This document shows positions 399 through 5,543 of a stretch of 43,572 bases of DNA, one piece after another (the first letter of the stretch is position 1; every line of letters starts with the position of its first letter). The position numbers and the translations under genes are program-made. Location of the stretch: assembly GCA_020719845.1 (NCBI GenBank), contig DYPP01000013.1, positions 3,908-47,479 on the forward strand, written 5' to 3'. The DNA comes from Treponema denticola. GTDB lineage: Bacteria > Spirochaetota > Spirochaetia > Treponematales > Breznakiellaceae. The notes under the pieces were generated by a model that had not been told where the DNA came from, made no database searches, and saw nothing but the letters and a program-made list of their open reading frames with translations.

Positions 399-1349
399 AT
401 GAACCGCCCCGGCAGTCTTGCCCTGTTCCTGAGCCTGACCGCCGCGCTTACCCTGGCCGCCCAAAACGGGAGCGGCGACCTGGCGTATCCGACCATCCTG
501 CGGCTCGCCGCCGGGGACGCGTCCTTCATGCAGTACCAGGCGGATGTGGCCGACGCCCGGCAGCGGCTGGCAAACCTGGAACAGGCGAGGCTCGATGCCC
601 CACGGGCAGCCGCCGGCTTGACGGTCTACGCCTACCGGCCCCAAAAAGCGGACGAATTCTTTACCCTCGCCGCCCGCTGCGGCATCCCCTACGCCGGTCT
701 GGCCAGCGCCAATCGTCTTCCCAACCCGGACTTGCTGGGACGGGCGACGGTGCTCCTGCTGCCATCCGTTCCGGGCATCTATATCCCCGAACCGCCGCTG
801 TCCGACCTGGAACGGCTGATGACGGCGACCCGGGCGGGCAAACCGGCGGTGGAAATTTTACTGCGTCCCGACGGCAAGCCGCAGCGTTTCCGATTTTTTC
901 CCGGCGACGACTTCAGCCCTACGGAACGGGCGTTTTTTCTGAACGCCGCTTTCCGCTTCCCCCTGCCGGCTTTTACCCTGACCAGCGCCTACGGCGTGCG
1001 GCGCAATCCCGTCACGGGCAACCTGGTCTTTCACCAGGGCCTGGACCTGGCTGCCCCCCCGGGCACCGACGTGTACGCCACCCGGGACGGGACGGTAGAC
1101 GAAATCGGCGACGACCCGATCTACGGCAAGTACGTCGTCATCCGGCACGAAGGGGACTGGTCCAGCCTGTACGGCCACTTGTCGGAAGTGCTGACGGACT
1201 TGCGGAAGCCCGTCCGATCGGGTACCCTCATCGGCAGAGTAGGCTCAACCGGCCAGTCGACGGGACCCCACCTGCACTTTGAACTGCGGCAGGACGGCAG
1301 ATCCCGGAATCCGGCCCCCCTGCTGCCTTCAAAAGGAACAGATCGGTGA
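399..1349 (+). CDS. secreted LysM / M23 metallopeptidase
   Basis: This 316-residue envelope protein begins with a signal peptide (hydrophobic stretch at about residues 6-20, cleavage near LAAQ). A LysM-like segment follows in the middle (around LTVYAYRPQKADEFFTLAAR). The C-terminal peptidase M23 (lysostaphin-like) domain contains HQGLDLAAPPGTDVYA and the terminal HLHFEL zinc-ligand motif. Members bind peptidoglycan through LysM and cut or regulate cross-links. The ATG at 399 is chosen because it starts the signal peptide and lies 9 bases after an AGGGGGA ribosome site. Its last codon overlaps the next gene (GTGA), so the two are translationally coupled. The gene starts just downstream of a terminator with no room for a separate promoter. 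Confidence 0.9.
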   Translation: MNRPGSLALFLSLTAALTLAAQNGSGDLAYPTILRLAAGDASFMQYQADVADARQRLANLEQARLDAPRAAAGLTVYAYRPQKADEFFTLAARCGIPYAGLASANRLPNPDLLGRATVLLLPSVPGIYIPEPPLSDLERLMTATRAGKPAVEILLRPDGKPQRFRFFPGDDFSPTERAFFLNAAFRFPLPAFTLTSAYGVRRNPVTGNLVFHQGLDLAAPPGTDVYATRDGTVDEIGDDPIYGKYVVIRHEGDWSSLYGHLSEVLTDLRKPVRSGTLIGRVGSTGQSTGPHLHFELRQDGRSRNPAPLLPSKGTDR

Positions 1350-2326
1350 AACGCGGATACGGCGCGGCGCTTCTCTTGCTGGTACTCACCCTGCCTCTGC
1401 CGGCTGAAACTTTCCGCACCATAGTCGCGGGCCTGGTCGATCTTTCCGTCGACGACATCGACGGGCGCACCCTGGAGCTTTCCTACGTGGATTCCGTGGT
1501 GGTGCGCTTCAAGCAGGGGACCCGGTTCATGCGGGGCGTCGAACTGGAGCTGAAAGTACCGCCGGCCTACCTGAAATACCGGGGCAGCCTGTCCCTGGCC
1601 TTCTATTCGGACCTCAAAGCCACCCCCGAGCCGGGCGTGGCGGACATCAGCGCCCTGCGGGCCGGTTTTTCCCTCCTGCCCAATAAACTGCAGGCGATCT
1701 ACCAGATTCCCATCCGCACGGACGCGGCGCTGAAATCTTCGCCCTACGTCACGATTCCCACGGACGTGGTCCTGCCGGACTCGTTTCCCCTGCTGGTCCG
1801 GCTGATGCCGGTCATCAAGGGTTTGAGCGAAGAAATCGAGCAGATGCGGTTCTACCTGAACGTCAAACCGATCCTGTCCGACGAAGGCGCGGTCCGCGTC
1901 CAGATCCGGTATCCGGAGCAGCTCAAGGGGCGTCCGTTCACCATGCTGATCGACGATGCCGTCGTGGCCGATCCCGCCGAAGAACGCCTGTTGAAGGAAG
2001 GCGAACACCATCTGGCCATCGTCTCCGACGATTACCGCAACGAAAGCCGGCGCTTCAACGTTCAGCGCGGCAAAGTCCTGGAGCTGCTCCTTGAGCTCCA
2101 GGATCCGACGCCCCTGCTGATTTTCGAGGGACCGGAAAATTCGACGGTCTACTTCGACGACCGCAAAATCGTCGACTACAGCGCGGCGATTCCCACCGAA
2201 CCGGGGGAGCACCAGGTCCGGTTTCAGGTGGGCGATTATTCCATCGTCAGGCCGCTGGTCATCCGCAAGGGCCGCACCTACCGGATCGCCTTGACCATCG
2301 ACGTGACGGTGACGGAAAAAGAATAG
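1346..2326 (+). CDS. secreted protein with a PEGA-like C-terminal region
   Basis: The product has 326 residues. The start is a GTG overlapping the stop codon of the M23 gene. An N-terminal signal peptide (hydrophobic core at about residues 7-18, likely cleavage after PLPAE) directs export to the periplasm or envelope. The mature protein looks like stacked beta-sandwich domains. The last 70 residues (LLIFEGPENSTVYFDDRK to the end) resemble the PEGA domain seen in surface-associated bacterial proteins. I do not recognise the first 240 residues as a named family. The coupling to an M23/LysM peptidase suggests a role in cell-wall or envelope maintenance. A terminator lies about 110 bases downstream. 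Confidence 0.75.
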   Translation: MKRGYGAALLLLVLTLPLPAETFRTIVAGLVDLSVDDIDGRTLELSYVDSVVVRFKQGTRFMRGVELELKVPPAYLKYRGSLSLAFYSDLKATPEPGVADISALRAGFSLLPNKLQAIYQIPIRTDAALKSSPYVTIPTDVVLPDSFPLLVRLMPVIKGLSEEIEQMRFYLNVKPILSDEGAVRVQIRYPEQLKGRPFTMLIDDAVVADPAEERLLKEGEHHLAIVSDDYRNESRRFNVQRGKVLELLLELQDPTPLLIFEGPENSTVYFDDRKIVDYSAAIPTEPGEHQVRFQVGDYSIVRPLVIRKGRTYRIALTIDVTVTEKE

Positions 2327-2433: not shown

Positions 2434-2460
2434 GGCCGGTGCAAACCGGCCCTTTTTTTT
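2434..2460 (+). terminator. intrinsic terminator
   Basis: GGCCGGT (2434-2440) pairs perfectly with ACCGGCC (2445-2451) across a GCAA loop and is followed by C and eight T. It closes the M23/PEGA unit ahead of the penicillin-binding protein promoter. In the 107 bases between the stop at 2326 and this hairpin I see only a TATAGT box at 2386-2391 with no good -35. Confidence 0.9.
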
Positions 2461-2544: not shown

Positions 2545-5118
2545 ATGGCCTCCGATACCCTCCGACCCCCCAGGCAGATCATCGTTCGCATTGTCGTGGC
2601 CGTGGCCGTATTTTCGGCGGTCCTGATCGGCGTCGCCGCCGGTTTATCCCTGGCCGAAACCGTCAATATCAGCAACCAGGAAAACTTCATCGAACTGGCG
2701 CCGGCCCTGCCGACCAGGATACTCGACGTGCACGGCACGCTGATCACCGAGTTTTCGGCGGAAGAAAAAAGGGAACTGGTGGCGCTCAACCTCTTGCCCA
2801 AGCACCTGATCTACGCGGTGCTGGCCCGGGAAGACCCCAACTTCTACCAGCATCCCGGCTTCAGCGTCCGGGGCATCCTGCGCGCCCTGATCGGGCAGCT
2901 GACCGGACAGAACCTGGGCGGCGGCTCCACCATCACCCAGCAGGTGGCGGGCACCCTCTACGCCGACCGGTCGGAAAAATCCATCGCCCGCAAGCTGCGC
3001 GAGCTCTGGTGGGCGCTGCAGCTGGAGCGCCGCTACACCAAAAATGAAATTCTGGAACTGTACCTCAACAAGATGTACATGGGCGCCGGCACCTACGGCG
3101 TCGAAGCGGCCAGCAAGTACTACTTTGGCCACAGCGCCCGGGAGATCAGCCTGGCCGAGTCGGCCATTCTGGTCATCCAGCTCTCCAGCCCCGCCCGCTA
3201 CAACCCCCTGGACAATCCGAACGTCGCCCGGGACCGCCAGCGGTCCGTGCTGGACCGGATGATCGAACTGGGCTTCGCAACCAAAGCCGATGCGGAAGCT
3301 TCCTTCAATGACTATTGGAACAATTACGATTACACCCGGGTTTCCACCTCCGCCTATTTCAACCGGGACGACCAGGCGCCCTGGTTCAGCGAATACGTGC
3401 GGCGCCAGCTGGAAAACATGCTCTACGGGACGCTGGACCTGTACAAGGACGGCTTTACCGTCCACACCACGCTGGACCTCGGCTTTCAGGCCGCGGCGGA
3501 AAAGTACGTGGCCCGGGGACTGGGCGAAGCCAACCTGGAATACCAGAAAACCCAGGGCGCCCGGCTGGAGCAGGCGGAACAGGTCTACGTTCCCATCGTG
3601 GACCTGCTCTCCCTGGTCTTCGACATCGACGCGATCCACGCTTCTTCCGACGGCCAGAACGAACGCAAGGCGCTTACCCGCTACGTCACGGAAATCAATC
3701 CGGTCATCGACGCCGCGGCGCTGCTGTTCGGCCTCCAGAAGCTCAAGCCCCTCACCAACGCCGCCTACGGCACGATGAAGAACATCAGCGAAAAGAACAC
3801 CGTCGAAGGCGCGCTCATCGCCATCGAGAACGACACCGGCTACATCAAGGCGCTCATCGGCGGCTCCAGGTACGATCAGTCCAACCAGCTCATCCGGGCC
3901 ACCCAGGGGCACCTGATGCCCGGCAGTTCCTTCAAGCCGCTCTATTATTCCGCGGCCATCGATTCCCGCAAATTCACCGCCGCCTCGCTGATCTATGATT
4001 CGCCGGTGGTCTTCTACAACGAGGACAAGACGCCCTACATTCCGCTCAACTACAAGGGCGAATGGAAGGGACCGGTCCTGCTCTGGTACGCCCTGGCCCA
4101 TTCCATGAACGTGCCCTCCCTCAAGGTGCTGGACGGCGTGGGTTTCGACGCCGCCATCGACCGGGCGGCGATCCTGCTGGGCATCGAGGACCCGGACCTC
4201 AAGCGGCGCACCTTCCCCCGCCTGTATCCCCTGGGGCTGGGCGTGATCAGCGTCGCGCCCATCCAGATGGCCCGGGCTTTTTCCGCCTTCGCCAACCAGG
4301 GCCGGGAAGTGACCCCCATCGCCATCCGGGCGGTGGAGGACCGCAACGGCCGGGTCATTCTGGACCCGGAAAAGGAACTGCGGCAGCAGCAGAAGCGGAA
4401 AGGCGCGGCCATCCAGATCATCAGTCCGCAGAACGCCTACATCATGACCAGCCTGCTGCAGAAGACCGTCGAGTCCGGAACCCTGGCCTACGCGGCCGGC
4501 TACGGCTCCAAGTTCACCTACCGCGACCCGGAAGGCAATAAATTCTCCCTGCCCGCCGCCGGAAAGACCGGCACCACCCAAAACTGGGCCGATGCCTGGA
4601 CGGTCGGCTTTACGCCCTACTACACCACCGCGGTGTGGTTCGGGTTTGACCGGCCGGGCAATTCCCTGGGCGTCACCCAGACCGGCGCGACCATCGCCGG
4701 CCCGACCTGGGCGGATTTTATGCGCGAAATCCACCAAGGTTTGCCGATGAAGGACTTTGTGCGCCCCAACACGGGGCTGATCGACGTCACGGTCTGCGCC
4801 CGTTCGGGTTTGCTGCCCACCCCGGACTGCAACGAAGGCACGGTCACCGCGACCTTTTTGGAAGGCACCCAGCCGACGCGGTACTGCGACATCCACGAAA
4901 ACTCCGCCCAACGCACCGAGCAGGTGCTGGACATCATGCGTCTGGACACGATGCTGATCGACGATACGGACCTGGCCAATCAGCTGAAGATGCCCACGTT
5001 GCGCCTGGACCTGCTGCCGTCGAGCTCCGGGACGCCGCCCGGCGCCCCCGCCCCCGGCGGCACGCCGGATCCGGATCCGTCCCCGGGCGTAGGCAACTAC
5101 AATCCCTTGCTAGATTAG
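2545..5118 (+). CDS. class A penicillin-binding protein (PBP1A-type)
   Basis: This 857-residue bifunctional peptidoglycan synthase has one N-terminal membrane anchor (residues about 12-34). A GT51 glycosyltransferase domain follows, with catalytic Glu96 in REDPNFYQHPG and then GGGSTITQQVA. The transpeptidase domain carries the nucleophile Ser461 in SSFK, an SMN motif (HSMNVPSLK) and KTGTT. The C-terminal tail is rich in Pro, Gly and Asp. It polymerises and cross-links lipid II at the outer face of the membrane. Length and order of motifs match the mrcA/ponA family. The ATG at 2545 follows a strong promoter by only 6 bases. The ParB-domain gene begins 5 bases after the stop and is probably co-transcribed. 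Confidence 0.96.
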   Translation: MASDTLRPPRQIIVRIVVAVAVFSAVLIGVAAGLSLAETVNISNQENFIELAPALPTRILDVHGTLITEFSAEEKRELVALNLLPKHLIYAVLAREDPNFYQHPGFSVRGILRALIGQLTGQNLGGGSTITQQVAGTLYADRSEKSIARKLRELWWALQLERRYTKNEILELYLNKMYMGAGTYGVEAASKYYFGHSAREISLAESAILVIQLSSPARYNPLDNPNVARDRQRSVLDRMIELGFATKADAEASFNDYWNNYDYTRVSTSAYFNRDDQAPWFSEYVRRQLENMLYGTLDLYKDGFTVHTTLDLGFQAAAEKYVARGLGEANLEYQKTQGARLEQAEQVYVPIVDLLSLVFDIDAIHASSDGQNERKALTRYVTEINPVIDAAALLFGLQKLKPLTNAAYGTMKNISEKNTVEGALIAIENDTGYIKALIGGSRYDQSNQLIRATQGHLMPGSSFKPLYYSAAIDSRKFTAASLIYDSPVVFYNEDKTPYIPLNYKGEWKGPVLLWYALAHSMNVPSLKVLDGVGFDAAIDRAAILLGIEDPDLKRRTFPRLYPLGLGVISVAPIQMARAFSAFANQGREVTPIAIRAVEDRNGRVILDPEKELRQQQKRKGAAIQIISPQNAYIMTSLLQKTVESGTLAYAAGYGSKFTYRDPEGNKFSLPAAGKTGTTQNWADAWTVGFTPYYTTAVWFGFDRPGNSLGVTQTGATIAGPTWADFMREIHQGLPMKDFVRPNTGLIDVTVCARSGLLPTPDCNEGTVTATFLEGTQPTRYCDIHENSAQRTEQVLDIMRLDTMLIDDTDLANQLKMPTLRLDLLPSSSGTPPGAPAPGGTPDPDPSPGVGNYNPLLD

Positions 5119-5123
5119 AGCGG

Positions 5124-5543
5124 ATGAACGAGAATGAACGCGGGAGCGTGATCGTGCAGATTCCACTGGAAGACATCATCGTCAAAAAGAGAATCCGGAA
5201 AGACGTGGGCGACGTTTCGTCCCTGGCCGACAGCATCCGGCGGTTCGGCCTGATCAACCCGATCGTCATCAACAAGCGCAACGTGCTGATCGCCGGACGG
5301 CGGCGGCTGGAGGCGGTCCGCAACCTGGGCTGGCGCACGGTCAACGCCGCGGTCATCGATTCTACGGATGAATTGAACAAACTGGAGTTCGAGCTGGAAG
5401 AAAACCTGCACCGCCAGGACCTGAGCCTGGAAGAAATCGCCAAAGCCAACGACCGGATCCGCAAATTGCGCCATCCCGGTGTGTTCCGCAAACTCTGGAA
5501 TAATTTTGTACGTTTTCTGAAGCGTCTATTCCGGCTGGACTAG
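5124..5543 (+). CDS. ParB/sulfiredoxin-domain mini-protein
   Basis: The product has 139 residues. Residues about 10-95 form a ParB N-terminal-type domain: SLADSIRRFGLINPIVI (ParB box I-like) and LIAGRRRLEAVRNLG (box II, the nucleotide-binding GxRR region). It ends in a basic amphipathic segment (FRKLWNNFVRFLKRLF) instead of the helix-turn-helix and dimerisation domains of true ParB. It is therefore unlikely to be the chromosome-segregation ParB; nucleotide (CTP or ATP) binding is inferred from the fold, and membrane or partner binding by the tail is a guess. It lies 5 bases downstream of the PBP gene. An extended -10 box (TGCTAGATT, 5109-5117) overlaps the PBP stop and may give additional transcription. 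Confidence 0.8.
   Translation: MNENERGSVIVQIPLEDIIVKKRIRKDVGDVSSLADSIRRFGLINPIVINKRNVLIAGRRRLEAVRNLGWRTVNAAVIDSTDELNKLEFELEENLHRQDLSLEEIAKANDRIRKLRHPGVFRKLWNNFVRFLKRLFRLD

Follow-up and report, generated by a model that had tools for sequence, protein, structure and literature searches.

A spirochaete ParB-fold mini-protein encoded beside a class A penicillin-binding protein: a candidate nucleotide-binding envelope adaptor

What would a ParB domain do beside a cell-wall enzyme? Most of what is known of the ParB nucleotide fold comes from DNA clamps, and in the stretch of Treponema denticola DNA analyzed here (43,572 nucleotides of contig DYPP01000013.1, hereafter the window) a gene for a short protein of this fold, which we call mini-ParB, directly follows the gene for a class A penicillin-binding protein (PBP). 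A preliminary description of the same DNA had read the product as a ParB domain with an amphipathic tail and had proposed a nucleotide-dependent switch tied to cell-wall synthesis.

The gene and its fold

The open reading frame and its adjacency to the PBP gene (PBP_1a_fam match at 2e-181) stand as first described, with the gene then placed at 5124-5543, 5 bases after the PBP; the start, and with it the gap, had to be revised. The PBP stop codon occupies 5116-5118, leaving 5 bases before ATG 5124 and 35 bases before GTG 5154, and the residue encoded by GTG 5154 is the first residue of all homologues. Since the homologue starts and the GGGAG box favor GTG 5154, we adopted the 129-residue version with its gap of 35 bases, and 5154-5543 is the likelier gene of the two (Table 1). 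No terminator-like site was found in the 35-base gap, and a strong terminator-like hairpin lies upstream of the PBP gene, at 2434-2451. Further upstream of the latter, the window carries genes for a ferredoxin, an M23 peptidase, and a PEGA-domain protein.

Table 1. Features of the mini-ParB locus, in window coordinates
Feature	Position	Strand	Basis or remark
M23 peptidase, conserved neighbor	399..1349	+	Relatives in 23 surveyed regions
PEGA-domain envelope protein, conserved neighbor	1346..2326	+	Relatives in 19 surveyed regions
Intrinsic-terminator-like hairpin, then T run	2434..2451	+	Between PEGA gene and PBP-mini pair
Class A PBP (PBP1A family)	2545..5118	+	Directly upstream of mini-ParB gene, same strand
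Mini-ParB gene, earlier version, ATG start, 139 aa	5124..5543	+	First 10 residues not conserved
Mini-ParB gene, 129 aa	5154..5543	+	Preferred GTG start, GGGAG 7 bases upstream; homologue starts
Box II, G48-R49-R50-R51 (GERR in ParB; E78 equivalent is R)	5295..5306	+	Alignment; PMC8494293
Box III, E83-N84-L-H-R87 (ENLQR in ParB)	5400..5414	+	Alignment
C-terminal basic aromatic amphipathic helix, residues 110-126	5481..5531	+	Predicted

Mini-ParB is a ParB_N-fold protein without a helix-turn-helix (HTH) and without a ParA-binding motif. ParB_N (PF02195, E = 1.6e-9) is its sole Pfam match above the cut-off, and no HTH family of Pfam matched the 129 residues, whereas the true ParB of the genome, encoded on a separate contig and used as a control, matched both ParB_N (4e-34) and HTH_ParB (1.1e-33). 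The absence of a DNA-binding HTH, noted from the outset, is therefore borne out. The ParA-binding motif LG(R/K)GL is absent from the window protein and from the homologue alignment, because mini-ParB starts directly with the first strand of its fold.

Structure prediction and comparison with ParB and Noc, the check proposed in the preliminary description, returned a ParB fold as well, with Z of 11-13.5 to ParB, Noc, and PadC. The AlphaFold2 model was built with 105 homologues (mean pLDDT 78.6, pTM 0.56; block means of 80-92 for residues 1-70 and a moderate 62-72 for residues 71-129) and shows the ParB nucleotide fold joined through two helices to a final helix at residues 110-126. Its best Foldseek match was Noc (2e-7), and the family profile compared with the PDB gave a ParB-fold match at 6e-15, finding ParB, Noc, PadC, and, weakly, sulfiredoxin. 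In VIA structural alignments over about residues 1-89, in which rows with Z < 5 were treated as background and ignored, the values were 13.5 for Myxococcus xanthus ParB, 12.5 for Noc, and 11.9 for the solved ParB-fold structure of M. xanthus PadC (residues 1-88), compared with about 8-10 for sulfiredoxin and 6-7 for SerK. The last two share the fold and likewise have no HTH (PMC12704722), and mini-ParB could in principle be a membrane-acting enzyme akin to SerK or sulfiredoxin; however, it is nearer to ParB/Noc in sequence and structure, and no cysteine stands among its invariant columns, which makes such an enzyme highly unlikely.

Nucleotide site and membrane tail

The homologue set, which first held 28 proteins, was widened to 121 distinct proteins across the spirochaete phylum. 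The equivalents of Bacillus subtilis ParB G77, R79, R80, E111, and N112 are invariant in it (121/121), and the window protein has G48, R51, E83, and N84 at binding positions; loss of the nucleotide-site residues in homologues, named beforehand as evidence that would count against a nucleotide-dependent role, was thus not found. In B. subtilis ParB the substitutions R80A and G77S impair CTP binding (PMC8494293). The claim that the protein keeps the ParB nucleotide-binding boxes holds for these residues but not for the boxes as a whole: box I (NPxQPR in ParB) is three residues short and its NPxQP pattern is lost in the mini family, while in the window box II reads GRRR against GERR and box III ENLHR against ENLQR.

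Hydrolysis in ParB involves the pair E78 and E111, and both E78Q and E111Q stop it (PMC8494293). The E111 equivalent is kept in 121/121 mini homologues, in contrast to the E78 equivalent, where the window protein has R and the family as a whole Y, E, G, H, Q, R, F, or A, with glutamate in 21/121 homologues versus 23/24 true-ParB controls. We infer that mini-ParB binds a nucleotide, with poor or no hydrolysis, and since the hydrolysis glutamate is mostly gone, the term "nucleotide-binding" is better supported than "switch." A 2025 survey of the ParB fold described binders of CTP, ATP, and GTP, reported that 17 of 28 purified ParB-fold proteins gave no detectable nucleotide binding, and found that nucleotide specificity is not reliably predicted by sequence analysis or AlphaFold3 (PMC12704722).

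The basic aromatic helix, thought at first sight to be able to sit on the membrane, is supported as such by prediction. In the window protein its hydrophobic moment is 0.86, a value not reached in 200 shuffles, and its net charge is +6; across the family (n = 121) the mean moment is 0.69 versus 0.34 for shuffled tails, and the D factor exceeds 1.34, the threshold for lipid binding, in 83%. Furthermore, 11 distinct homologues, all of family f3 (L032, L121-L130), have two predicted transmembrane (TM) helices after the amphipathic tail, an independent argument that the mini-ParB domain belongs at the membrane. Membrane attachment of the family is strongly supported by these predicted TM-fused homologues. 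An amphipathic membrane helix joined to a ParB fold, a trait of Noc, is thus predicted here too, at the opposite end of the protein.

A spirochaete family and its linkage to class A PBP genes

Mini-ParB is a phylum-wide spirochaete family, separate from the true ParB of the same genome. The best matches in a search of 392 genomes fell into two levels, of about 1e-25 or better for the mini family and of about 1e-12 to 1e-22 where only ParB-type proteins were found. In the tree of the shared domain the mini family stands apart from 23/24 ParB-type controls with 99/99 support, the exception being one ParB-type control row with a very long branch. Many spirochaete genomes have a class A PBP but not the mini gene. 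A single-protein scan of genome contigs gave just one weak ParB/Noc-like match, and a plasmid search gave three partial ParB matches only. One 4.5-Mb genome of family f1 (G382) has seven ParB-type matches, far above its relatives.

In the small-genome family f7 the mini gene was present in every genome among those listed, where the gene order runs Nox-GltP-Pgi-mini-PBP and a PilZN3 (PlzA-like) gene adjoins. From this gene order and that of the loci BB0728-BB0734, we take f7 to be Borrelia, in which the mini-ParB gene is presumably the one annotated as Spo0J (BB0731); if so, the Spo0J label is misleading. The protein was not described in the literature searched (on the Borrelia locus, and on ParB together with PBP in spirochaetes), and spirochaetes are unmentioned in the main text of the ParB-fold survey (PMC12704722). 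The loss of the HTH, the C-terminal domain, and the hydrolysis glutamate could be read as the decay of a ParB duplicate without function. This reading is barely credible, because the binding residues are invariant phylum-wide, and the gene is kept in every listed f7 genome.

Of the 92 homologues within the class Spirochaetia, 82 immediately follow a class A PBP gene in the same orientation, in 21 families with Borrelia included, and the gap is at most 201 nt in 81 of these 82. The ten unlinked homologues comprise two at contig edges (L027, L086), two in genomes where no class A PBP was found (L114, L115), and six, belonging to two genera, whose genomes carry the mini gene and the PBP at separate places. 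M23 and PEGA genes often precede the PBP-mini pair, forming a wider M23-PEGA-PBP neighborhood. Outside the class, no PBP was adjacent to the mini gene (0/29 homologues), and the neighbors include citrate synthase, RuvA, and small membrane proteins. Conserved linkage to PBP genes, whose lack had been named as grounds for dropping the proposal, is therefore present in one class and not outside it, and within the class it fails for two genera and for two genomes with no class A PBP found. In family f43, which falls outside the class, the mini gene is preceded by that of a conserved membrane protein some 150 residues long (L073, L083, L085).

These distributions bear on whether the protein serves the PBP in particular. 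It may instead be a general membrane adaptor common to all spirochaetes, for example a PadC-like scaffold, with the PBP linkage reflecting an expression operon of one class. The other neighbors of the mini gene in other classes agree with this, as do its retention in G364 and G393, the two genomes where no class A PBP was found, and the place of PadC among the closest solved relatives. However, the PBP linkage persists over 21 families with very short gaps, Borrelia retains both genes in a reduced genome, and mini-ParB has no ParA-binding motif. We regard the general adaptor as a tentative alternative, possible but doubtful.

Strict loss of the mini gene together with the class A PBP was considered as a further sign of linkage and found weak, with two genomes holding the mini gene only and many the PBP only. 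Among the genomes listed, family f13 has neither the mini gene nor PF00912; all 20 PF00912-negative genomes listed belong to f13, and the listed positives include none from f13. Little weight was given to this joint absence because it is possibly a single loss. The six f13 genomes probed carry no more than one PF00905 transpeptidase each, which makes their wall machinery unusual.

A closer partnership with the enzyme would resemble that of GpsB, a small cytoplasmic protein at the membrane that serves a PBP in Gram-positive bacteria; mini-ParB may have a like role, although the folds of the two are unrelated. A nucleotide-loaded mini-ParB dimer would then bind the short tail or the TM helix of the PBP and activate or place the enzyme. 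The strict adjacency of the genes and the TM-fused homologues, which might make contact with the PBP inside the membrane, are consistent with such a direct cofactor, and cytosolic PBP adaptors have a precedent in GpsB (PMC6335420). Against it stand the PBP cytoplasmic tail, with about 4-15 residues that would offer a cytosolic partner little to hold and no evident motif beyond basic residues, the unlinked mini copies, and the genomes without a class A PBP; we consider it unlikely.

The linked PBPs end in a recurrent C-terminal motif (window 5096-5118; L005-L020, L092-L130), in the forms YNPLLD, NYLLD, NFLFD, and NPYLD, and NIQLD in Borrelia, and the same motif ends PBPs of genomes without the mini gene (L173, L174). 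A position outside the cytoplasm is expected for this motif, which might serve as a docking peptide. As a partner of mini-ParB, the NPLLD motif was rejected on account of its presence without the mini gene and its expected noncytoplasmic position. In a close relative, a J-domain-like gene (L173:1507-1995) takes the place of the mini gene directly behind the PBP.

Relation to ParB, Noc, and PadC and a proposed role

Mini-ParB shares the nucleotide-binding fold and boxes II and III with canonical ParB/Spo0J, but it has no HTH, C-terminal dimer domain, or ParA motif, its box I is short, and E78 is mostly lost. Noc of Bacillus shares the ParB fold and has an amphipathic membrane helix under the control of its ParB domain (PMC8429893), to which the predicted helix of mini-ParB is comparable; Noc differs in its HTH, C-terminal domain, DNA binding, CTP hydrolysis, and N-terminal helix, where mini-ParB has no HTH and a C-terminal tail. 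PadC is described as a CTP-binding scaffold at the bactofilin cytoskeleton (PMC12704722) and recruits ParA through a ParA motif, whereas mini-ParB lacks the motif and has a predicted membrane helix of its own. Mini-ParB is not a ParB, having neither HTH nor ParA motif, and not a Noc, having no DNA-binding domain. It is best read, by analogy, as a variant in the ParB-fold group that would work most like Noc and PadC while being a member of neither.

Built on the observed sequence family, its invariant residues, and its gene order, our preferred explanation is that mini-ParB is a membrane-attached, nucleotide-binding, probably nonhydrolyzing ParB-fold envelope adaptor with a PBP-coupled wall role in Spirochaetia, a reading to which we give an even chance. 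The invariant binding residues suggest that its ParB domain would bind a nucleoside triphosphate, CTP or another, and binding would be expected to favor face-to-face pairing of two domains, as in ParB/Noc. Each subunit is predicted to sit on the inner face of the cytoplasmic membrane through its C-terminal amphipathic helix, and in some relatives two TM helices would provide this hold instead. Having lost its DNA reader, its ParA motif, and in most members the hydrolysis glutamate, the protein would sense nucleotide or serve as a scaffold, turning over slowly or not at all, rather than clamp DNA. In Spirochaetia, gene order points to a role in wall synthesis, which the protein, co-encoded with a class A PBP, would most likely help to place or tune.

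Mini-ParB may control the PBP directly, but contact with the enzyme is the weakest link in this scheme, owing to the short cytoplasmic tail of the PBP and the PBP-unlinked mini copies. Consequently, we prefer "membrane-attached nucleotide-binding envelope adaptor" to "PBP switch." The originally proposed switch keeps its linkage to wall synthesis and its binding residues, and is weakened by the loss of most hydrolysis glutamates; in its full form, a ParB-fold membrane switch that acts directly on a class A PBP to control or position it and couples wall growth to the CTP/NTP state, it seems to us rather improbable.

We know of no mechanism for the control of class A PBPs in spirochaetes. In the mini family, a fold familiar from chromosome segregation's DNA clamps would have dropped DNA and ParA binding and most of its catalytic glutamates, kept its nucleotide pocket, and become attached to the membrane at a cell-wall operon. 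Mini-ParB may thus offer a concrete candidate, with testable residues, for class A PBP control in spirochaetes.
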